Assembly: GCA_019186985.1 (NCBI GenBank)
Contig: JABARQ010000016.1
Coordinates: 1-64,000, forward strand
Direction of reading: 5' to 3'
From: Prosthecobacter sp.
GTDB taxonomy: Bacteria > Verrucomicrobiota > Verrucomicrobiia > Verrucomicrobiales > Verrucomicrobiaceae
DNA: 64,000 nucleotides
Notes under the pieces: generated by a model
Seen by the model: only the letters and a program-made list of their open reading frames with translations
Database searches by the model: none
What the model was told of the DNA's origin: nothing
Shown here: positions 1 to 29,455 of the stretch, piece by piece
How positions within the stretch are numbered: position 1 is the first letter of the stretch
Layout: every line of letters begins with the position of its first letter
Made by a program: the position numbers and the translations under genes

Positions 1-102
1 CCGCCTCGCGGCGACGCAGTTACTTCAAGTTCTCACCTGGAACACGGTTCCAGATGGCCGAGGTCTTCCACCCCGGAGGATCGTGACGCTTCACAGCGCA
101 CT

Positions 103-218
103 AGCCATCTCGCTCCGCGAGATGAGCGAGAGGCTTTCGCCAACAGGCAGGACGTCGGGGGTTCGTCAACGCTTGAGCAGGCCGGACGCCAGGCTCATCT
201 CGACGGAGCGAGATGGCT
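103..218. repeat. 25/26-bp inverted repeat with 65-bp loop
   Basis: The left arm at 103-127 and the right arm at 193-218 are reverse complements except for one extra base in the right arm. Such a long arm is unlikely by chance. No transposase is encoded between the arms, so it could be a small non-autonomous element, a strong RNA hairpin, or a folded recombination site. Confidence 0.6.
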
Positions 219-462
219 GCTTTGCTGGCGCATTCCCCCTCCTTCCTCGTCGATCCGGCGGTTCTCGCTCGCCAAGCCTCGCTTCACCTCCGGCTTATTT
301 CTGACATGCCTCCGGCATGCGCTCACGGGCGACCAAACCACCGGTGCCGCCCAATCAGCAAAGCCGGGCCGTGGCTGAAATTGCACCTTCGCGCATTGGG
401 CCATTCCTGGGTCATTGGCGCTCGGGCATGGGTCAATTCTGCCTTCCCTTCGCAGGCTGGAG

Positions 463-495
463 GCAGCCACCGTGACCTTCGGAACGGTTTGCTGC
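463..495 (-). repeat. Hairpin just downstream of the 505-816 gene
   Basis: Two nested arm pairs are visible: GCAGC at 463-467 with GCTGC at 491-495, and ACCGT at 469-473 with ACGGT at 484-488. On the minus strand the hairpin begins about 10 bases after the TAA stop at 505-507, and the stop codon lies in a TAAC context. This recalls the attC recombination sites at the ends of integron cassettes, but the second core site (GTTRRRY) is not clear. There is no U-tract, so it is not a canonical terminator. Confidence 0.4.
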
Positions 496-504
496 AACGC
501 ATGG

Positions 505-816
505 TTAGTCGTTGCGGCTGTTGTCCTTTGAGGTGTGTGGCTGCCGGGCCGTCGTGCGTGTGAAGATAAACAACGCATACGAGACGCCGGCAAGAAATAG
601 AAGCCAATAGAACCAGTGGCATGAGATAACAGCGATCCAACCGGCCAAAAGACCTACAAACGCTGAAAGTGGTATCGAAAGTAAAATGGCCCAACGCCGC
701 ATCCTGAACATGCCAACGGCGAGGCAGATGCAACACAGTCCGAGAGGGGTGCAGATGAAGGCGAGATGGTTGCGATAAGACGTGAATCCGAAAGTCCAGC
801 TCCACGCCATCGCCAA
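505..816 (-). CDS. Small hypothetical membrane protein
   Basis: A 103-residue protein with about three hydrophobic segments (roughly residues 15-35, 42-62 and 65-85) and a polar C-terminal tail rich in T, R and N. No family is recognised. It starts 6 bases after the stop of the 823-1269 gene on the same strand, so the two are probably cotranscribed. The stop codon sits at the edge of a hairpin. The role is unknown. The frame is supported by its membrane-protein composition and tight spacing, not by homology. Confidence 0.5.
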   Translation of the reverse strand: MAMAWSWTFGFTSYRNHLAFICTPLGLCCICLAVGMFRMRRWAILLSIPLSAFVGLLAGWIAVISCHWFYWLLFLAGVSYALFIFTRTTARQPHTSKDNSRND

Positions 817-822
817 GGATGA

Positions 823-1269
823 CTAGCTCCAGTATGTTCGAATGCAGATGGTTCCTCGGACTGGGTGGTGTATCAGCTCAGCAAACACTGCCCCACCTCC
901 GGCGGGTATCTCAAACGTGACACTGCCATCTGGCGACTCTGCCCTCGCCGTCTTCGGATCAGCAATGCCAGGACAACTGCGAACCCACGCCGCAATAGCC
1001 GTGGAGTCACCAAAGAAGGAAACCCGAAATTCGCGAGTGAACATGCCGCCTCCGGCAACGATGGTGAAGTTCTGGGCCTCAACCGGAAAGGGGCTCAATC
1101 TCGCCCACTCGATTATGGCTGTCCGTGCACTCTTTTCGGTGAAGTGAGGGTAACCAGGAGGGCCGAACGTGATGTCGAGGCCATAGATCAAGGCCAGCGT
1201 GCCAACGACAGTCAGCGCAACGCCAGCGATAACACCTCCGATAAACGAGCGCATGCTTCCGTGCTCCAT
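823..1269 (-). CDS. Hypothetical membrane-anchored protein
   Basis: A 148-residue protein with a glycine- and alanine-rich hydrophobic segment at about residues 8-30, then a soluble domain of about 115 residues. The single N-terminal segment suggests an inner-membrane anchor with the rest periplasmic. No known domain is recognised. A second possible start is the Met at residue 6. It precedes the 505-816 gene by 6 bases and probably forms a two-gene unit with it. Confidence 0.55.
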   Translation of the reverse strand: MEHGSMRSFIGGVIAGVALTVVGTLALIYGLDITFGPPGYPHFTEKSARTAIIEWARLSPFPVEAQNFTIVAGGGMFTREFRVSFFGDSTAIAAWVRSCPGIADPKTARAESPDGSVTFEIPAGGGAVFAELIHHPVRGTICIRTYWS

Positions 1270-1394
1270 GGTAGATTCAGATGTTAGACGAGACGTCTCG
1301 GATCAGACGGCGGCAAGCGCAAGACGTTGCTGACACGACTCAGCGGCTTCGAGCCGTTGCCTGCATCCGATTTGTTCGTAATTGCTGATGGCTT

Positions 1395-1718
1395 TCATTG
1401 GGGACGGGTCAGAAAGTAAAATGCCGTTCTCATGACCACGGACGCAACCAAATACCATCCACAAATCTTGAGAGTGGTTCGACGATCGGCACCGCATGAC
1501 CAGCCCACGAGATAGTAAAGTGCAACCAACTGGAACGGAGTGGCTAGCGGTCGCAGTGAATCACCCAAGAGTGATCGGAAAACGAGTCCGGCAATCATCA
1601 CTCCAAAGATGACGACCCAGGTCTCTCGGTAGCTCTGAACTGCTTCCATCGAGCCTGTGAACAAAACGATGAGAAACCAAAGAATGCCGAGATCAAGGAA
1701 TGTGCCGATAGAGGTCAT
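1395..1718 (-). CDS. Small hypothetical membrane protein
   Basis: A 107-residue protein that is mostly hydrophobic, with about three to four transmembrane segments and a short charged end. No family is recognised. It is separated from the 823-1269 gene by about 125 bases containing the 12-base perfect palindrome CGAGACGTCTCG at 1289-1300 and a hairpin-forming stretch. It lies in a run of small minus-strand genes with no shared pathway, typical of accessory DNA. Confidence 0.5.
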   Translation of the reverse strand: MTSIGTFLDLGILWFLIVLFTGSMEAVQSYRETWVVIFGVMIAGLVFRSLLGDSLRPLATPFQLVALYYLVGWSCGADRRTTLKICGWYLVASVVMRTAFYFLTRPQ

Positions 1719-1789
1719 TCAAGGGTGGGATTCGCTTTTGGCCAAACAGGTATATTATCAAAAACATTGTTGTTTTTAGACGCCGTGTA

Positions 1790-2338
1790 TCATTGTTGAG
1801 ATACCCTCCAGCCGTCATCAAAGCGCTGAAAGAGCAATTTCTCATGTGCTCCGACATAAATATACTTAATTAAGTCATTCGCGGAAGAAGGTAACTTGTA
1901 GCGAGTGACAAAACTCACCTCACAGCAGTTCTGATTGATCAATGCAATACCTTTTATTTGCTCGACGCTAACGTGAATCGGTGCGGTTGTTCTTAACCCC
2001 TCATTAGTCCGTTTATGGGAGTCGCTTGCCAAAATAACAGATGGAAGGTCAGTTCCCTGCTTTAAAAGCCCCCCGCTGACTGCTTCAAATTTCTGAGTTG
2101 TTCGCAAATCTCGTGCGAATCCGGGTGGCTTTGCTAAAAGTCCATCCTGCAGTGCCAGCAACTTTCCTTCCCGAGTTAGCTTTAGAGAGGTAATTGGTCT
2201 CTGAGCTAGGTGCTGGTTGATCTGCATAGTCGCTTCCTCTCGCGTCAACGGAGCGTTGGGGTCACGCCCACAACTAGAGCATACGACTGATGCAACAATG
2301 ATCAACTGTAGATGGCTGAAAGCATGTTTGACGTTCAT
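1790..2338 (-). CDS. Putative lipoprotein, unknown function
   Basis: A 182-residue protein. The N-terminus has a hydrophobic signal of about 20 residues ending in VCSSC, and Cys23 is the probable lipidated residue, although the position -3 residue is not the usual Leu. The mature part has no recognised domain. The DNA is clearly less GC-rich than the core genes further right, which suggests recent acquisition. The gene is surrounded by AT-richer spacers of about 70 bases downstream and 140 upstream, so it is probably transcribed alone. Confidence 0.6.
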   Translation of the reverse strand: MNVKHAFSHLQLIIVASVVCSSCGRDPNAPLTREEATMQINQHLAQRPITSLKLTREGKLLALQDGLLAKPPGFARDLRTTQKFEAVSGGLLKQGTDLPSVILASDSHKRTNEGLRTTAPIHVSVEQIKGIALINQNCCEVSFVTRYKLPSSANDLIKYIYVGAHEKLLFQRFDDGWRVSQQ

Positions 2339-2481
2339 GATGGTGGACTATGTTGATTGGGCGAACGATGAGCGCATGCAGAACTTCCAGAGAGGGCGAG
2401 CGTCGATCACGGGGTTGGTGTTGAAATTACGGATAATTATCTAAACAGAGCGGCAGGTAGTGGTTGTCATGACGAGGCTTA

Positions 2482-3354
2482 TTAGCGAAATTGCATTCTT
2501 GGATACGGGCTCGACAGTGTATAATTCTCATCCTTTGCCCAGTTCTCGATGCAGTAATCATAGAACCTATCTGCTGGCTCAAAATGCACAAAACGCCTCA
2601 ACTCAAGACCGATTCGGGTCAATAAAACCTTCCCTGTACTTATCACCCTCTTACCGCTACTCTCCCTGATCTGGAATTCTATGATTTCGCCGGCCACTAC
2701 TATATGAAACGTCTCGGGAAGTCCATGTCTCACAAATCCTAAAAGCCCTCCTAACTGGATCAGCCCGATTGTGTCCATGTAAGAAAGATCAGCCCAAGTC
2801 AGACCATTATTCGCAAGAATCTGATGCGACGTGTCAAAGATGAGGGTAGTTTCTAACGAATTGGCGCTGAACCGACAAAGTCGAGCAAAAATCTCTGCGT
2901 CACTTCTGTCCATAGCCGCAACAAAGTCTACGGTTCTCTTCGAGACGCTGCCTGGCTTATTCGCCTCTCCAGCAAGTAATCGCGCCCACAGAGACTGCAT
3001 CTCCTCATTTGAGACACGTCGGCACTTCGAGAAGAAGTCACTAATCCAATCTTCGTCCATCACGGAAGGATCACTTCCCGCGTCCAAGTTGTGGAGTGCC
3101 TTGGTCGTAATGTCCTCAATATTCTTTTGCTCTCTTGTCTGCTCTACCACAAAGCGGGTAAGGGCGCGGCGCTCAAGGTCGCCAATAGTAATGCGAGACT
3201 CGGCCTCAATCAGCGCAGCGTCAGCCTTTGCCTGCGCCTCCTTACGGATTCTACGCGGCTCATATAGCACACCAATTGCAGAGGATACCTTCTCGATGAG
3301 CACCGTCGCGGGCTTAGAAAGTTCACCAATATTTATGAGGGAGGCGTCGCTCAT
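2482..3354 (-). CDS. DUF2806 domain-containing protein
   Basis: A 290-residue protein. The N-terminal 50 residues (INIGELSKP, then a segment with LYEPRRI) and the middle (DEDWISDFFSKCR, then MQSLWARLLAGE) match my recollection of the DUF2806 family, whose function is unknown. Residues 35-75 are Ala- and Glu-rich and probably form a long helix. There is no signal peptide, so it should be cytoplasmic. Members are typically scattered single genes in variable genome regions. The low-GC setting here fits that, and a defence role is possible but not shown by the sequence. Confidence 0.75.
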   Translation of the reverse strand: MSDASLINIGELSKPATVLIEKVSSAIGVLYEPRRIRKEAQAKADAALIEAESRITIGDLERRALTRFVVEQTREQKNIEDITTKALHNLDAGSDPSVMDEDWISDFFSKCRRVSNEEMQSLWARLLAGEANKPGSVSKRTVDFVAAMDRSDAEIFARLCRFSANSLETTLIFDTSHQILANNGLTWADLSYMDTIGLIQLGGLLGFVRHGLPETFHIVVAGEIIEFQIRESSGKRVISTGKVLLTRIGLELRRFVHFEPADRFYDYCIENWAKDENYTLSSPYPRMQFR

Positions 3355-3473
3355 TTTATTTAGCTACCGTCTAGCTCATCCACGGCGGGGATGAAAGCCA
3401 GAACTCAAACTGGAGCTCTTGTTCGCCTTGTTTGTATGGCGATCGTGCTCATGCGAGTGCCTGTAGAAGCTTA

Positions 3474-3623
3474 ATGCCAATTGGTGTGATTCGCCAAGAT
3501 TTGAAGCGTATCATCAGCCCCCTGAAACACAAGAGACCCACCGATGAAGAGATCCTCTACAAGTTCGTAAAGGCCGCCGGGCTGATCGCGGAAGAAATCA
3601 GCCGAAGCCCGTCACGACCTTGA
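3474..3623 (+). CDS. Short ORF or gene remnant
   Basis: An open frame of 49 residues starting at the ATG at 3474. The frame is open upstream to another ATG at 3432. Its amino-acid composition (many Ile, Lys and Glu, and an amphipathic end) is protein-like. It overlaps the 3' end of the convergent kinase gene by about 26 bases. It may be the surviving C-terminal end of a longer gene broken when the accessory region was inserted. No family is recognised. Confidence 0.25.
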   Translation: MPIGVIRQDLKRIISPLKHKRPTDEEILYKFVKAAGLIAEEISRSPSRP

Positions 3624-4344
3624 GGGCAGACGCTGCATCAGGCCGCCGGTCTCGCTCCACGGATAACAAGCTCTGCAACCAGGTTCTCCAGGCATCGGGA
3701 AGCTCTGCAAAAACCGCCTCCTTCTCCCACGCCGGCGGGTGCAGGTGACTCGTGATCACCTGCGGCACGGTTTCACCTTCATGCACAAACCGGCCTGCCA
3801 GGGCAAAGGCCAGCGTGCAGCCCAGGGCGTAAACATCCGTCCGCCCATCCAGCTCCGCCTTGCCAAACCGTTCGGGAGCCATGCAATGAACGGACCCCGT
3901 CAAAGCACGTTCCGAAGCCTGTGCCACCGGCACGCATTCACCGAAATCAATCAGCTTCCAGCAGTCACCCGTCTTCATGAGGTTTCCCGGCTTCACATCC
4001 AGGTGCAGCAAGCCGGCCTGATGCACGGCCACCAGGGCGCCCAGGACATCGACGGCCAGTCGACGCCACTCCGCCAGGCCAAGCGGCGTAGCATCCTCGA
4101 TTGTGCCTCCCTCCAGCCACTCCAGCGCCAGCCAGCTGCCTTCCTGAGCTACGCCATGCTCCAGCATCCGCACGATCCCTGGATGCTGCAAGGTGGTGAG
4201 CGCCTCCGTCTCACGGGCCGCCGCCTCCGGATCGGTCACCAGCTTCAAGGCCACCAGCCTGCCACTGTCACGATGCCCGGCACGACAAACCCTGCCCCTC
4301 GGGCTTTCGGCGATCTTCTCCAGCATTTCGTAGTCGCTCAGCAC
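3598..4344 (-). CDS. Serine/threonine protein kinase (single domain)
   Basis: A Hanks-type kinase of 248 residues from a GTG start at 4342-4344. An ATG at 4324-4326 is an alternative, and the frame is open to 4473 but would then run into the divergent sulfatase gene. The catalytic Lys34 in VALK, HLD with Asp116, Lys118 and Asn121, DFG at 133-135 and APE at 156-158 are all present, so it should be active. The glycine-rich loop is degenerate, keeping only the last Gly in AESPRG. There is no transmembrane segment or sensor domain, so it is a soluble kinase, unlike the long PknB-type receptors. The substrate is unknown. Confidence 0.85.
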
Positions 4345-4415
4345 GCGCGGATGCTGCCCCGGCCGCAAGCTGGCTGCAAGTCCGCCGGAGGAACGCTCGT
4401 TTCCCGGCACCCGCC

Positions 4416-6044
4416 ATGCGACCGCTCCTCCTGCTCTCCCTTCTCCTGCCCCTTCTGACCGCCTCCGGCGCATCCAGGCCTAACATTCTGTTCTGCTTCG
4501 CCGACGACATGGGCCGCTACGCCAGCATCTACCGGCAGCTCGAGGGCATGGGCACGCTCAACGACATCATCGAGACGCCCAACATCGACCGCATCGCCAG
4601 GGAGGGCGTGCTTTTCAAGAACGCCCACGTCACCGCGCCCTCCTGCACGCCCTGCCGCAGCTCCCTGCTCTCCGGCCAGTACTTCTGGCGCACCGGCCGC
4701 GCCGCGATCCTTCAGGGCGCGAAGTGGGACATGAGCATTCCCTCCTACCCCCTGCTCCTCAAGGACGCGGGCTACCACATCGGCAAGATGTACAAAGTCT
4801 GGTCGCCCGGCAGTCCTGGAGACGCCCCCTACGGCCAGCAGCAGCACGCCTATGAAAAGGCCGGCCGCCGCGTGAACGACTTCTCCGAGCACGTCACCCA
4901 GATGGTCGCCGAAGGCAGGGAGGTCGAAGCCGCGAAAAAGGTGCTTTACGATGAGGTCGCCGCCAACTTCGACGCCTTCCTGGCCGACCGTCAGAAGGAC
5001 CAGCCCTTCTGCTTCTGGTACGGCCCCACCAACGTTCATCGCAAGTGGGTGAAGGGCAGCGGCGCCGCCCTGTGGAAACTCGACCCGGAAAAGCTCAAGG
5101 GCAGGCTGCCGGCCTTCCTTCCCGATGTCCCCGAGGTGCGCGAGGACCTGGCCAGCTACTTCGGTGAAATCATGGCCTTCGACGCCTGCGTCGGCGTGCT
5201 TTTGAAAAAGCTCGAGGCCATCGGCGAGCTCGACAACACCCTCGTCGTCGTCAGCGGCGACCACGGCGCGCCGGGCTTCCCGCACGGCAAGTGCAACCTC
5301 TACGACTTCGGCACGCACGTGACCCTCGCCGCCCGCGGCGCCGGCACCCGCGGCGGCCGTGTGGTGGACGACTTTGTCAACCTCATGGACCTGGCCCCAA
5401 CCTTCCTCGAAGCCGGTGGCGTCAAGCCCCCGGACGTCATGACCGGCCGCAGCATCCTGCCTGTCCTGCGCAGCGAGAAGAGCGGCCAGGTCGATCCCGA
5501 ACGCACCTGGGTCATCACCGGCCGTGAACGCCACGTCGAGTCCGCCCGTGAAGGTTTTCTTCCCTACCCTCAGCGTGCCCTGCGCACCCCCGACTACCTT
5601 TTCATCCTCAACTTCAAGCCCGACCGCACCCCGATGGGCGACCCCGGCCAGCTGGATGCCGACGCCACCACCCTGACCGAAAACACCCACGTTAGCTTTG
5701 CCGACATGGACAGCAGCCCGACCAAGGCCTGGCTCATCGGCGAGCACAACAACCCGCAATGGAAGCAGCACTTCGACTGGGCCTTCGCCAAGCGTCCGCG
5801 CGAAGAGCTGTATGTCATCAGCAAGGATCCGCACGAGGTGAAGAATGTCGCCGAGGACCCCGACTACGCCACCATCCGCGACCAGATGCGTGAGCGGCTC
5901 ATGGCCGAGCTCGCGCGCACCAAGGATCCGCGGCTTGAAAACGACGGCGCCTTCTTTGAAACCGCCCCGATGGCCGGGCCGCTGCCTGACGATGTCGCGA
6001 AGCCGAACCGCGCCAAAAAAGCGGCGGGCAAAAAGAAGAAGTAA
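4416..6044 (+). CDS. Secreted sulfatase
   Basis: Type I sulfatase of 542 residues that would remove sulfate esters from polysaccharides outside the cytoplasm. Residues 1-19 form a signal peptide. The alkaline-phosphatase-like core begins with [13 protein letters not shown], where Asp30 and Asp31 are metal ligands. The signature CTPCR at 77-81 has the Cys converted to formylglycine by a maturation enzyme not seen in this window. A metal-site motif SGDHG lies further along. The tail is lysine-rich. It is transcribed divergently from the kinase with only about 70 bases between starts. Sulfatases of this type are abundant in Verrucomicrobiota and Planctomycetota that degrade sulfated glycans. The substrate cannot be read from sequence. 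Confidence 0.9.
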
Positions 6045-23843: not shown

Positions 23844-23923
23844 AGCTCAAATACCTGCTGATCAGCATCACTACGGTGCTCCTTGGCACGCTAGCGATGT
23901 TGCTCGCTGGGCACTTTGAATGA
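23840..23923 (+). CDS. 27-residue single-helix membrane peptide
   Basis: An ATG at 23840 overlaps the stop of the DUF1080-like gene as ATGA and opens a frame of 27 codons ending in TGA at 23921-23923. The product is MKLKYLLIS followed by a continuous hydrophobic stretch and the end AGHFE, which is one transmembrane helix with a positive N-terminus. The overlap suggests translational coupling. It could equally be a chance frame, or a truncated signal peptide left at the junction with the accessory insert that begins 12 bases later. Confidence 0.4.
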   Translation: MKLKYLLISITTVLLGTLAMLLAGHFE

Positions 23924-23935
23924 TTCCGAGTTGGA

Positions 23936-26900
23936 CTACATCTCATCGTCGTCACTCTCGATCAACTGACGATCCTTGCGGCGGCGGGCTTCGAGCATGG
24001 ACCGGCACTCGGAGAGCAGGTTGCTGTAGAATTTCGCTAGGCTGGAATGATGAGCGTGATCTCTGACCAATTTTTCGACCTTTGCAATGACGGGCATTTC
24101 GCCCTCATCTGGTTCTGGATGACGTTTCCCACGCCGACGAAGCCCGCTTGTTGAGCCAACTTTGCAGCTCACGACGGACATCAAGTCTTTGCGAGACCTC
24201 TCTGTGTGCTCTGGAAATTTCGAATCAATCTGAGCAAGTAGAGCCTCAAGCAAAGTCGGATGCCGAAGAACGAGGACGGGCGAGTCGCCGATCACGGCGT
24301 CGTGAAATAGCCAGAGCTCATTAAGTGAGTTGATTTCTGCAATCCAGGACCCAACAAGGATCGGATACTTTGCGCCCGCAGCATCCAACATCCAACGAGT
24401 GAGCTGGCGTAATTTCCAATGGTAGCCTCCAGATTCAAAGATGCGTCGGCTGTCGCCATCTGCGGCTTTCGCTCGCATGATCGCGATCAGTTCGTCGCGC
24501 AGTTCAGTGAACTTTTCCTCAAACGACGGATGCTTGGCAAAAGGGGCCAGTGAGACATGATCACCATAGGCCGGGAACGCCTCGTAGGCGGATTGATCCA
24601 GCGGATCTTGTCGGGCACGGTCGCGGCTGAACGCAATCCGCTGGCGGTAAAATTCAAAAACTTCCAGCGGGTTGCTTTCGATCAGATGATTGAGATGGTG
24701 CTGCTCCATCGCTGAGTGAATCCGCGGAACAGGGACGAGCCGCACCAGCGCCAAAGAGACGAGGTTTCCGGGCAACGGTGAGGAGCCTTTCTGCTCCACA
24801 CGAGCCAGGAGTGCCAGCAAAGGTTCCGTGATATCATTTGCGAATGGGTTTGCCAAAACACCCACCAGCAGGTCGGTGAAAAAGGAGTCAGCCGCAGATG
24901 GAAGCAGTGACGCCTGCCTAAGCATGGACCTCACGACCTGGGGTTGTGAGGTCCGGGCCAGCTCCATCAGGAGCTCTTTGCCCACCTCTGGAAGGCGCTG
25001 ATGCCTCCGCCACGATAGCAGCAGCCAAGACGCTTCTTCCTGTAGTATCATCCTGGGTGATTGCGCAGCCGCTTTCACGAGGTCGATGCGTATGGCGCTC
25101 CCCGCTGGACAAAGGCCATCCACGAGTGCTCCGAAGGCACGCTGGGCTTCAATACATGGTGAAGTGATGATCTCTTGTGCGAGCGCTTCTGCCAGACCTG
25201 GATCATGCCTAGCCAATGGCAGAAAAATCGTTCTCAGAGTAGGGCTGAATCCAAGTGCAGCAGCTTGTTGAATGAACCCGGCCAGGAAATCGTGGAGTGG
25301 ACCGGCATTCGGAAACCGCTCTGCCAGTTCGGCGGCAACGCGAATGCATAGCTGTTCCCAAAAATCGCAGCTTTGCTGCCAAGAGCGCCCTTCCAGCCTC
25401 AGCACCGCATCACGCTTGTGGGAAGTCGTGATCTCAGATTCCCCAGTTGAACAAGTAGCGCGAACCAGGCGCAGCTCGAAAGTGTCGCTCAATAAATCGA
25501 ACAGCTGCCAGACCTCCTCCCGCAGAAGATTGGTGGGTTCATAGCAGATGTGCCACCACAGTTCATGCCAGATGGTCCAGTGGATGAAGGCTGAGGTGTG
25601 CCGTCGGGCGATGGCAGCAATGCGCTCCAGGGCTTCACGACGTTGAGGCAGCCACTTCTGCTGCAGCTTCCGATCATCCTTCAAACCTGGGACGTTGATC
25701 ATTCTGACGGCTTCACCGAGGACGCTGAGTGCGTTAATCGCCAGGCCAGGGTGTCCGCATTTGGCAAGTGAGGCTGCCAAAGACAGCACTCGACCGCGAA
25801 GTGACAGGACTTTGTCGGCATCGATGGCGATCTGCTCAATACTGAGCACACCCGACTCTGAATCATACCGATTGTCCTCGACGCTGTGCTTGAGAAACGG
25901 CGACAGCAGTGTCGAAAACCACCAAACAGGAGTTTTCAGGCGTTCGACGACTTCAGGTTTGGTGAACTGGTTCTCCATCCAGGCTAGAGCATGTTCATTG
26001 ACGGCGGGTGATTTGCGTAACTCCAAGGCCGAGACCTCCACGATGGCAGAGAGCGGATGATCCTGATTGCTATGCATCCAGCGTTTGGGCTGATCGCAGC
26101 CGATGGACCAAAGCCGATCAAAACAGGCGTGCATGTGCTCGAGGTGATGAAGGGCGACCTCTTTGAGCAATGGCGTCAATGCATCGACCACGTCTTCGTA
26201 GTCGTCGCGGGCTGGCCACAGGAAGCCGCTCTCGTTCTTCGCACCGCTACTGGTCAGTTCGCGGGCTAAATCGACGATCTCGAGAGTTTGCTCTGGCAGA
26301 TACACTCCGAATCGCGACCAATGGCCGAGCATCTGACGGCGCCGATGAAAGCTCGCTCGTTCGAACTGTGCCTTCCACGATACCAGCAGTGGTTTGACCA
26401 CGGACTGATGTTGCCCTTCCGTTTCGCATCGAGCCCGCCATTCAGCTTCCGCGAGATTCGGCAGGCAACGAGCAAGAGCTTCATCTTGCAAGTTCTCCGG
26501 CACGCTGGCGAGATAGTCTGCGGCAAAGCCTTGGTCTCGATGGGATTTGTCAAAGGTCCGCTCAAACAGGAGATAGTCGGAAAGCAGGTCTGGAGACACC
26601 CGATAGCCCTCCCGACCCTCGGCGAGCAGCCCGGCGTGTTTGAGCTTCTCCAGCCAGGCTCGCACCTCGGAGGGCTTGGCATCGGTGCCAGAGTCCTGAA
26701 CCAACAGATCAAACCATGGCCCCTCGCGGGGAACGGGCCCGGCCAGGGCCACGTGGTCAAGAATCTGATCGATGCGCTGGCGGTCGGCGATCAGGCCTAG
26801 CCGGGCGACCCCTTCATCAATGAGACGGACGAATACCTCCTGCTCAAAGTCTCTGTTGGAGGCGAGGTGCGTTCCTGTGGGACGTCGCTGCCGGATAAGT

Positions 26901-28063
26901 TCACAGGCGACGATAACGATGAGCAGGCAGCCCCGGGCCTTTGCCACTATGTCCGATGCAAGAGAGCGGAAATCATTCCCGAGCAGTGATTCGGCAATGC
27001 TTTTGATCTCTTTGGGTGTCAGCCGCTTGAGCGGGGCCATCTCTTGAATGCGTGGTGCAGGCACACCGGCACCTGAAGCGGAGCCACGCACGATCGCCAT
27101 GCCTTGCGGGCGAGTTGCGAGGATGACCTTGGCCTTGCCAGATCGCAGCACCATCCGAAGCAAGGGCTCCAACTCACGCCGGTGAGCATCATCGACGATG
27201 ATGACGGGCCTGCCTTCGAGTGCTTGCAAATCCTCCTCCCTGACCTGCACTCCAATGTCTTCAAAGAACCTGATGCTCCAGTTCCTCCGCTGTGCCGGTG
27301 TCAGTGATTGACTGAATGCTTTTAGGAGGCGGCTTTTGCCAGCGCCACCTGCGCCTGGCAAGATGAGCAATCGCTTCTCGTCGTTCCGTAAGAACTCGTG
27401 AAGTTCTGCCAGTTCAGCCTGCCTGCCCACCACGTCAGCCTTGTGATGGAAAAGACTCCCGCTTTCCATCTGCCGTGAAAAGAAAGCCCCACTCGCCTGA
27501 AGAGGTCCGCTGCCTGGAAGTCCGAGAATCTCCTCCGCCCAATGCGCACCAAAGTAGGTATTCAGCAAGCGGGCTGCCTCGTCCCGATTTGGCAATGCAC
27601 GCACACGCGCGGTGATCTCACCACGACTCCACACTTGCCAGCCTGGATGAGATCGGCCTTCGTCCACTGCTGCGGCAGCTAAATCGCATGTCACCAGAAG
27701 GAAATGGAACTGCGCCGGAAACTTCTCGTGCGCCAGCTTGATGGCATCTGTTGTCTGGCTGGCTGACCATCTGGCGCGATGCTTGCACTGGAACCCCCAC
27801 GTCTCCTCTTGGGTGCTCCCGTCCACTTGCCTCACTTGCACCTCAGCTCGGATATCGATGCCGTTTTGGGCATCCCCGGAGGTTTCATAGCGCCAAGCGT
27901 TCGTAATCCTGCCTTCAAGCTTGCTGCCGACTCGGCTGATCTCGATCACTGGATGCAGGCGCAAAAAATCAGCAAAAAAGCCCTCGAAGTCCCCATACCC
28001 AAAACTTGGGTCCTGGAAAGGAAGTAGCCTTTTTTTCTGAGAAATGGGACCGATTTTCTTCAT
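23936..28063 (-). CDS. Mrr-like nuclease-STAND NTPase, putative anti-phage protein (Avs-like)
   Basis: A 1375-residue protein. Residues about 15-180 resemble an Mrr-type PD-(D/E)XK endonuclease, with Glu27, Asp70 in GIDI and Gln92-Cys93-Lys94 in FQCKH. Residues about 205-440 are a STAND/AAA-type P-loop NTPase, with Walker A GAGGAGKS at 237-244, Walker B VIIVDD at 287-292 and sensor-like ILATRP at 314-319. The remaining 900 residues are predominantly helical, with HEAT/TPR-like texture, as expected for a ligand sensor. This order (nuclease, STAND NTPase, helical sensor) is that of antiviral STAND (Avs) proteins. The DNA is less GC-rich than flanking core genes. It is divergent from an AAA/DUF4143 gene 41 bases away. 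Function is inferred from architecture. Confidence 0.75.
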   Translation of the reverse strand: MKKIGPISQKKRLLPFQDPSFGYGDFEGFFADFLRLHPVIEISRVGSKLEGRITNAWRYETSGDAQNGIDIRAEVQVRQVDGSTQEETWGFQCKHRARWSASQTTDAIKLAHEKFPAQFHFLLVTCDLAAAAVDEGRSHPGWQVWSRGEITARVRALPNRDEAARLLNTYFGAHWAEEILGLPGSGPLQASGAFFSRQMESGSLFHHKADVVGRQAELAELHEFLRNDEKRLLILPGAGGAGKSRLLKAFSQSLTPAQRRNWSIRFFEDIGVQVREEDLQALEGRPVIIVDDAHRRELEPLLRMVLRSGKAKVILATRPQGMAIVRGSASGAGVPAPRIQEMAPLKRLTPKEIKSIAESLLGNDFRSLASDIVAKARGCLLIVIVACELIRQRRPTGTHLASNRDFEQEVFVRLIDEGVARLGLIADRQRIDQILDHVALAGPVPREGPWFDLLVQDSGTDAKPSEVRAWLEKLKHAGLLAEGREGYRVSPDLLSDYLLFERTFDKSHRDQGFAADYLASVPENLQDEALARCLPNLAEAEWRARCETEGQHQSVVKPLLVSWKAQFERASFHRRRQMLGHWSRFGVYLPEQTLEIVDLARELTSSGAKNESGFLWPARDDYEDVVDALTPLLKEVALHHLEHMHACFDRLWSIGCDQPKRWMHSNQDHPLSAIVEVSALELRKSPAVNEHALAWMENQFTKPEVVERLKTPVWWFSTLLSPFLKHSVEDNRYDSESGVLSIEQIAIDADKVLSLRGRVLSLAASLAKCGHPGLAINALSVLGEAVRMINVPGLKDDRKLQQKWLPQRREALERIAAIARRHTSAFIHWTIWHELWWHICYEPTNLLREEVWQLFDLLSDTFELRLVRATCSTGESEITTSHKRDAVLRLEGRSWQQSCDFWEQLCIRVAAELAERFPNAGPLHDFLAGFIQQAAALGFSPTLRTIFLPLARHDPGLAEALAQEIITSPCIEAQRAFGALVDGLCPAGSAIRIDLVKAAAQSPRMILQEEASWLLLSWRRHQRLPEVGKELLMELARTSQPQVVRSMLRQASLLPSAADSFFTDLLVGVLANPFANDITEPLLALLARVEQKGSSPLPGNLVSLALVRLVPVPRIHSAMEQHHLNHLIESNPLEVFEFYRQRIAFSRDRARQDPLDQSAYEAFPAYGDHVSLAPFAKHPSFEEKFTELRDELIAIMRAKAADGDSRRIFESGGYHWKLRQLTRWMLDAAGAKYPILVGSWIAEINSLNELWLFHDAVIGDSPVLVLRHPTLLEALLAQIDSKFPEHTERSRKDLMSVVSCKVGSTSGLRRRGKRHPEPDEGEMPVIAKVEKLVRDHAHHSSLAKFYSNLLSECRSMLEARRRKDRQLIESDDDEM

Positions 28064-28104
28064 CTGGCTTGAAAATTGATACCAAAGGGATCATATTTCA
28101 AGTC

Positions 28105-29304
28105 ATGAGTTATCCGATAGTCCCTCGCTCTCGCCTCCGCAATCTGATCGAAGAGTCCGCGTGCCAATGGCCTGTGACTCTGCTGCTCGGCCCCCGGCAA
28201 TGCGGGAAATCACACCTGTCCCGGCAGCTTGGTGTCAGCCCCGGCCAGTATTTTGACCTCGAAGACATGGTGGATGAGGCACGCCTTCGACTGAACCCTC
28301 AAGCAGTTCTGGCAGAGATGCGTGGTCTGGTTGTGATCGACGAAGCTCAACGTATGCCGGAGCTGATGCCCGTGCTTCGAGTGTTGGCGGACAGGTCCCT
28401 GAGTCCTGCGCGATTTGTGCTCACAGGCAGCGTCGCGCCGCCTTTGAGACAAACGGCTGGCGAATCACTCGCTGGCCGCATGAATACCATCGAGATGAGT
28501 GGCTTTACTTTGGATGAATTGGAAGCTCAGAATGTATCCCGGCTGTGGCTGCGAGGCGGGCTACCACCAGCCTATCTCGCAGAAACAGATGATTTCTCCG
28601 CCAAGTGGCGGCGGCAGTATATCCGACATGTGCTGGACGCGGATTTGAATCAGTTGGTCGACACCAAGCTGGACACCTCCCAGCTCCAGCGCATGGCACG
28701 TGCGCTGGCACACTACAACGGGCAGGTATGGAACGAGTCCGAGGTGGCGCAAGTCGTTGGGACCACCCCGCGGACCATTCGCCGCTACATGGACATGTTT
28801 TGGCGGCTGTTTCATGTGAGGCGGCTGGAGCCGCTGCATGTCAATGTCACCAAGCGACTGCGTAAAGCGCCGAAATTGCTTTTCAGGGACTGTGGAATCG
28901 CTCACGCGTTGCTCGGCATCGACACCCTGGCAACGCTCCAGTCTCACCCCCGTATGGGAGCGTCGTGGGAAGCTTTTGTTGTCGATCAACTCATCCGCCT
29001 GCTCGGTGTGCCCGAGGATCGCTGCACCCATTACGCGGTTCATTCCGGTGCAGAAATGGACCTCGTCATCGAAGCGCCGGACGGCCTCGTATGTTTTGAG
29101 ATCAAATACGCGCCACCGTCTATCACGCAGTCGATGCGTGCGGTCATCGCTGATCTAAAACCAGCGGCCGTCTATGCACTTTACATGGGCGACAAAGACT
29201 ACCCTCTAGGAACTGAGGACGATAATATCCGTGCTGTGGGAGTTCAGCAGCTGCCTCAGTTCGTCGAAATGTGGCGTGAGAAACACAGGCTTCACGCGGC
29301 ATGA
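28105..29304 (+). CDS. AAA ATPase with DUF4143 domain
   Basis: A 399-residue protein starting at MSYPIVPRSR; the frame is open to 28006 but that part overlaps the divergent gene. The AAA_14 domain has Walker A GPRQCGKS at residues 29-36, Walker B VVIDEAQR with Asp79 and Glu80, and LTGSVAP as sensor. The DUF4143 C-terminal domain has a winged-helix region (VAQVVGTTPRTIRRYM) and a nuclease-like end with EMDLVIE and CFEIKYA. These ATPases are common accessory genes of unclear function. Divergence from the STAND gene with a 41-base shared spacer suggests joint acquisition, but a functional link is not shown. Confidence 0.85.
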   Translation: MSYPIVPRSRLRNLIEESACQWPVTLLLGPRQCGKSHLSRQLGVSPGQYFDLEDMVDEARLRLNPQAVLAEMRGLVVIDEAQRMPELMPVLRVLADRSLSPARFVLTGSVAPPLRQTAGESLAGRMNTIEMSGFTLDELEAQNVSRLWLRGGLPPAYLAETDDFSAKWRRQYIRHVLDADLNQLVDTKLDTSQLQRMARALAHYNGQVWNESEVAQVVGTTPRTIRRYMDMFWRLFHVRRLEPLHVNVTKRLRKAPKLLFRDCGIAHALLGIDTLATLQSHPRMGASWEAFVVDQLIRLLGVPEDRCTHYAVHSGAEMDLVIEAPDGLVCFEIKYAPPSITQSMRAVIADLKPAAVYALYMGDKDYPLGTEDDNIRAVGVQQLPQFVEMWREKHRLHAA

Positions 29305-29455
29305 CCAGCAGTCGCGTACTCCTGTCTTCAGACTGAGCAGATTCAAAATCCAAGAGGCGCTTCAGCGTCCGGTTGATCCAAACGGCGAACTGCCAAAGGA
29401 GCTGCACGAGTCTGAAAACACCTTCGCGCCGTGATTCTCGATCACTTTTTCATCA

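Follow-up and report, generated by a model that had tools for sequence, protein, structure and literature searches.

The Avs4 (AVAST type 4) receptor joins an effector, a STAND NTPase and a C-terminal helical sensor in a single chain, and its nuclease is Mrr-like. Upon sensing phage packaging proteins, the nucleases of Avs1-Avs4 cleave both phage and host genomes (PMC12931631). Here we describe a two-gene cassette that shares this logic, found in a 64,000-nucleotide stretch of Prosthecobacter sp. DNA (contig JABARQ010000016.1, positions 1 to 64,000; hereafter the window). One gene encodes a 1375-residue STAND nuclease, which we refer to as the receptor; the other, transcribed away from it, encodes an AAA_14-DUF4143 ATPase, which we refer to as the partner (Table 1). 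Together, the pair is probably a horizontally moving, Avs-like abortive-infection nuclease directed against phages or mobile elements and held under a dedicated regulator, with phage protection being what we infer.

Comparison with described systems places the cassette near several of them. The receptor has the single-chain order of Avs4, but it differs in the low identity of the structural match (14%), in a HEAT-type sensor and in the presence of the divergent DUF4143 partner. It likewise follows the tripartite logic of Avs5 (SIR2-STAND), and one of its archaeal relatives also bears a SIR2 effector; unlike Avs5, which has nSTAND3 (PMC12931631), the receptor family matches nSTAND_NTPase5. The NTPase and winged-helix fold is shared with animal and plant NLRs and with Apaf-1, whereas a nuclease takes the place of their death-fold or other adaptors and a HEAT-like solenoid that of their LRR or WD40 sensors. 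The partner is a clear member of the AAA_14-DUF4143 family represented by the candidate defence family PDC-S01, in whose name the 'S' denotes a single-gene candidate; here, in contrast, it is linked with a STAND nuclease over much of the phylum. As a putative DNA-binding protein beside a defence gene, the partner also recalls the WYL-domain regulators of defence islands (PMC9122601), although DUF4143 proteins are AAA_14 ATPases with a nuclease-like C-terminal domain. A Thermus DUF4143 gene near a CRISPR array is among the genes changed when plasmid DNA is present (PMC4406477).

The receptor had been proposed, in an earlier note made from the DNA letters, as a candidate antiviral STAND nuclease. 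Its reading frame runs from 28063 to 23936 on the minus strand uninterrupted by stops, and the motifs named in that note lie where it had placed them (E27, D70, Q92-C93-K94, GAGGAGKS with K243, and VIIVDD with D291-D292). Judged in a 30-row alignment of relatives, E27, D70, Q92 and K94 are kept in all rows with an Mrr domain, save for an arginine in place of K94 in one cyanobacterial row, and K243, D291, D292 and R318 are unchanged in all rows covering those positions. The Mrr_cat model gave no match to the 1375-residue protein itself at E <= 1; Mrr_cat and Mrr_cat_2 score above cutoff in several relatives whose alignment with it takes in the catalytic residues. Pfam nSTAND_NTPase5 matches residues 220-319 just below its cutoff (E 4e-8; 33.7 bits against 34), and the chain displays the features expected of a STAND protein, namely a P-loop, an hhhhDD Walker B motif, a sensor arginine, and helical and winged-helix domains after the NTPase. 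HEAT models of Pfam also touch relatives.

Structure models, built on alignments from which rows of the plasmid collection were left out, agreed with this domain order. The nuclease, modelled as part of residues 8-545 (predicted local distance difference test (pLDDT) 84), has a predicted core order of alpha-beta-beta-beta-alpha-beta within its first 120 residues which, with the E...D...(Q/E)xK residues, corresponds to an Mrr-like PD-(D/E)XK nuclease; the earlier note had made its case depend on such a fold in residues 1-180. In the model of residues 190-1375 (pLDDT 79), nearly everything after about residue 500 is helix, and the long helical C-terminal region that had been described is accordingly an alpha-solenoid of ~830 residues; the structures that it matches are those of HEAT proteins, exportin and CAND1 among them. 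Among solved structures, the top Foldseek match of the N-terminal half was Avs4 on a phage portal (8dgf; E 1.6e-9, 503 alignment columns), and the proposed Avs logic of effector, STAND NTPase and C-terminal sensor thus stands. VIA matches to the model of residues 8-545 were headed by NLRC4 (Z 16.3) and Apaf-1 (16.0), then NLRP9 and NOD2 (15.3), with EfAvs5 at rank 20 (Z 14.3). These matches cover model residues 153-538, that is, the NTPase and winged-helix part. For the core model, the VIA list is taken up by matches to the NTPase domain and is of little use on the sensor, and the absence of an Avs protein from that list does not exclude it. PADLOC returned no Avs match at E <= 1, and a sequence search among solved structures (PDB chains) returned P-loop noise only. 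Because structural likeness to Avs4 is not sequence membership, we do not file the receptor under Avs1-Avs5, in line with the earlier note, which had not recognised a numbered type. At full length, it is also left unnamed by the PADLOC, NCBIfam and Pfam models.

Relatives of the receptor were gathered from GTDB genomes with an alignment-based profile scan and from plasmids with a protein search; a patterns-only genome scan using the single protein found no relatives, which the alignment-based scan recovered. They occur in Verrucomicrobiota, Cyanobacteriota, Chloroflexota, Pseudomonadota, Actinomycetota, Acidobacteriota and methanogen-related archaea. Their cores can be aligned across ~1100 residues and their N-termini differ, the effector types being Mrr, HTH_3 with Mrr, DUF4062 (in ANME-1), SIR2 or SIR2_2 (in Methanosarcina) and one unknown domain. 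Between loci L016 and L017 the NTPase is 79-88% identical and the N-termini are without similarity. It is because effectors have been swapped on a fixed switch that we regard the N-terminal domain as the effector, and this is our strongest argument; such exchange is a hallmark of Avs and NLR receptors. Among the archaeal relatives, L013, L015, L016 and L017 have a DUF4062, SIR2 or unknown effector on a closely related switch. Two further genes were noted: a cyanobacterial plasmid gene (L006 7974-9545) has an Mrr-type N-terminus 36% identical to that of the receptor, fused to a C-terminal part that is different and has no STAND core, and a 406-residue gene (MNTIFWSWQSD...; L004 18742-19962) begins 6 bp past the stop codon of the Rhizobium relative and may be a different, proteobacterial partner.

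The closest relative, L094, is 56% identical to the receptor overall. Identity is 70% across the nuclease and declines to 38% by the C-terminal end, as would be expected of a sensor under diversifying pressure. At that locus (L094 4569-12373) the receptor gene is flanked by a PD-T4-6-like Ser/Thr kinase gene and an AbiEii gene, not by DUF4143. The receptor gene was found in 6 of 384 genomes of the class and 5 of 48 genomes of the genus, whose members occupy three separate places in the receptor tree. Vertical conservation without a link to defence islands, on which the earlier note would have abandoned the antiviral reading, is therefore not what we see; the spread is patchy and several relatives lie near defence genes. 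Beside other members stand a complete Gabija system (GajA and GajB), PD-Lambda-4, and type I and type IIG restriction-modification systems, and further neighbours include an HNH/SAVED-like effector with Cas5, TniQ, a MobA relaxase, AbiEii and a PD-T4-6-like kinase, a list of instances from neighbours picked for scanning as promising and not an enrichment statistic. At L081 (11077-13632), a protein with SIR2 and TPR repeats adjoins the G462 cassette and has a PADLOC likeness to Argonaute-associated SIR2 modules.

Comparison with a congener, G399, delimits the cassette. There, the same flanking genes enclose at its place a 439-residue gene that we read as lyase-like, and the cassette edges in the window fall at ~23846 and ~29361. 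Elsewhere, L007 (133-5349) and L008 (8702-13918) match at 87.5% over exactly both genes with unrelated flanks, and L010 matches across both genes likewise, again with unrelated flanks. Cassette size across loci is ~5.2-5.5 kb, the insert holds no integrase or transposase, and the window holds no tRNA. Judging from these alignments, the pair shifts between bacteria as an exact cassette without a mobility gene. G+C content is 55-59% across the receptor region and 62-66% in its surroundings, which bears out the low G+C described in the earlier note; the 'island setting' also claimed there was too loose, since the genes on either side are ordinary ones of the host and what is foreign is a two-gene cassette of 5.5 kb. 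Another stretch of low G+C (49-55%) lies at window positions 1-4000 and contains genes for a DUF2806 protein (2482-3354) and a small protein kinase (3598-4473).

The partner, which is half of the system, had been overlooked, as had the palindrome that it shares with the receptor gene. Its sequence matches AAA_14 (E 7e-21) followed by DUF4143 (E 8e-34), with a match to PDC-S01 at E 1e-79; its identity to the partners of full-length pairs is 44-47%, and it can also be read as a longer frame with a TTG start from 28006. The head-to-head arrangement occurs in 12 of 15 verrucomicrobial loci (the window, L009 (=L002), L019 (=L003), L007, L008, L010, L011, L018, L081, L082, L083 and L095), and all six receptor loci of the class sample are paired with DUF4143. 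In the remaining verrucomicrobial loci, L096 has a different DUF4143 gene tail-to-tail with the receptor, and L094 and L097 have no adjacent DUF4143 gene, with one ~3 kb off in L097. We rejected an obligate partnership on the strength of these three loci. The two genes are co-inherited: in the DUF4143 tree, 11 of the 12 partners and one lone gene form a supported group (96/87) whose branching largely mirrors the receptor tree, with L083 just outside on a long branch. Lone DUF4143 relatives are common, with matches in 84 of 384 class genomes; the genome that contains the window has two strong matches only.

Between the start codons of the two genes (28063 and 28105) lie 41 bp, filled by a 35-bp palindrome that encloses a promoter-like TTGAAA-17-CATATT. 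Searches at 0-2 mismatches found the palindrome to be unique in the 5.9-Mb genome. At the fifth base pair, the A/T of the window is replaced by C/G in L082 and by T/A in L009, and this joint variation indicates that the arms change together. Across 11 readable pairs, symmetric complementarity was 0.68 against 0.19-0.28 with slid partners, and 0 of 2000 shuffles equalled it, the 35-base windows having been placed by hand from the CTTG anchor and the centre, a choice that leans somewhat towards symmetry. A set of lone genes anchored by CTTG alone gave the same result (0.61; 0 of 2000 shuffles). Of 49 upstream regions of DUF4143 genes, both paired and lone and with six loci entering twice, 24 exceeded 95% of their own shuffles (p <= 0.05), compared with 16 of 276 control genes. 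Since lone DUF4143 genes carry similar sites, the likely binder is the DUF4143 protein, not the receptor. Such start palindromes are limited to the partner-like subfamily and some others. A universal DUF4143 palindrome was rejected, as archaeal members (mostly) and several others are without one; nor do we take the palindrome for the end of an element, since its position is internal to the cassette and not at the edges. No Rfam element was found.

Palindromes were also seen beyond the paired genes. In a first survey (L051-L126), about half of DUF4143 genes had one, often ~35 bp long, at or near the start codon, and these differ between subfamilies, examples being L103/L104 (TTGAGGAATCTAAACTGC...AGTTTAGATTCCTCAA), L079, L102 and L113. 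Upstream of 9704 in L024, an acetobacterial relative fused to a helix-turn-helix (HTH) domain, a long inverted repeat (CGCACACATTTTATGAGTT...AACTCATTTAATGTGTGCG) abuts the start (p 0.003). Inverted repeats upstream of the other HTH-fused proteobacterial relatives (L004, L020 and L022) were not significant; L004 and L020 have halves similar to the L024 repeat but weaker. We tentatively suggest, at a strength well below that of our reading of the cassette itself, that AAA_14-DUF4143 ATPases may be ATP-dependent self-regulators that read lineage-specific palindromes at their own start codons; one verrucomicrobial lineage would have become fixed as the dedicated switch of an NLR-like suicide nuclease, with a single palindrome shared by both genes, and proteobacterial relatives would have fused a DNA-binding HTH domain to the receptor instead.

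A mechanism can be outlined for the cassette. At rest, the STAND NTPase would be closed, and the DUF4143 ATPase would bind the intergenic palindrome and keep both genes at a low level. An invader protein, presumably from a phage, would bind the C-terminal alpha-solenoid and open the NTPase, ATP would drive oligomerisation of the receptor, and the clustered Mrr-type nucleases would cut DNA, leading to death of the infected cell or destruction of the invader. DUF4143 may additionally gate the nuclease.

Several observations weigh against this picture of a phage-sensing receptor under a DUF4143 regulator. A search of viral contigs and phage records found no relative, and the scanned neighbours in the window included no further known defence gene. 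The C-terminal solenoid is closer to HEAT proteins than to known Avs sensors. DUF4143 is not essential to the receptor, because three verrucomicrobial members, the closest relative among them, have no head-to-head partner and none of the 15 loci outside Verrucomicrobiota had a match to the partner model in the stretch of DNA searched around it. Many distant DUF4143 genes lack a palindrome, and a protein other than DUF4143 could bind the one between the two genes.

Other explanations account for parts of this evidence. The partner's C-terminal domain keeps an intact GAE-x-D...E-x-K motif of the PD-(D/E)XK kind, and E350, D352, E365 and K367 (432-residue numbering) are invariant, as are both Walker motifs, in the three partners aligned first, which would suit a second effector or co-sensor that cleaves DNA or RNA after the receptor has been set off. 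We consider such a role in place of regulation rather unlikely, for lone DUF4143 genes are common and have the same kind of start palindrome, which self-regulation fits better; the regulator and effector roles do not exclude each other. The divergent arrangement, shared palindrome and joint transfer would also be seen in a toxin-antitoxin-like pair, in which DUF4143 directly neutralises the STAND nuclease as a toxin and represses the operon, serving mainly cassette maintenance or a stress response. The receptor is not always accompanied by its supposed antitoxin, however: the three exceptional verrucomicrobial loci, and all relatives outside the phylum, have the receptor without a head-to-head or adjacent DUF4143 gene, respectively. 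Its size and three-part architecture are also unlike those of known antitoxin-controlled nucleases, and we hold this explanation to be improbable.

Equally improbable, in our view, is an enzyme resembling type IV restriction, whose NTPase and solenoid would read modified or foreign DNA for Mrr to cut with no protein ligand involved. The effector is indeed Mrr-like, one plasmid relative bears the annotation 'restriction endonuclease' and HEAT-type solenoids can bind DNA, but archaeal SIR2 or DUF4062 effectors on the same core would not suit a DNA-cutting restriction enzyme, and the NTPase is of the STAND type, nearest to NLRs and Avs, not to McrB. A MalT-like STAND transcription regulator, or a housekeeping protein outside conflict, is brought to mind by HTH_3 at the N-terminus of some relatives and is very hard to reconcile with intact nuclease residues, exchanged effectors, a patchy and mobile distribution and defence neighbours.

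Table 1 Features of the receptor-DUF4143 cassette in the window.
Feature	Positions	Strand	Remarks
Avs-like STAND nuclease gene, 1375 residues	23936..28063	-	Effector, NTPase switch and predicted sensor in a single chain
Mrr-like PD-(D/E)XK nuclease effector, residues 1-185	27509..28063	-	E27, D70, Q92-C93-K94
STAND NTPase and winged-helix region, residues 190-545	26429..27496	-	K243, D291-D292, R318; R488, P491, D496
HEAT-like alpha-solenoid, predicted sensor, residues 546-1375	23939..26428	-	Least conserved part; helical model
35-bp palindrome CTTGAAAATTGATACCAAAGGGATCATATTTCAAG	28068..28102	.	Candidate shared operator
Divergent AAA_14 and DUF4143 ATPase gene, 399 residues from conserved ATG	28105..29304	+	PADLOC candidate PDC-S01
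Inserted or replaced DNA, exactly two genes	23847..29360	.	Flanks match congener G399 on both sides
Remnant, ~last 20 codons of the replaced lyase-like gene	29374..29434	+	Alignment to L046 from 12892

The individual parts of the cassette are of known kinds; for the combination of receptor and DUF4143, we found no description in a search that took in neither subscription papers nor preprints. If our reading is true, the Avs/NLR-like receptors would gain a family that spans several bacterial phyla and archaea and was missed by the defence models tested, in which a single conserved switch and sensor serves four or more kinds of effector. DUF4143 ATPases would gain a specific function, as regulators whose target palindromes are readable from their own genes, and the cassette would offer a compact case for the practical question of how suicidal receptors are silenced.

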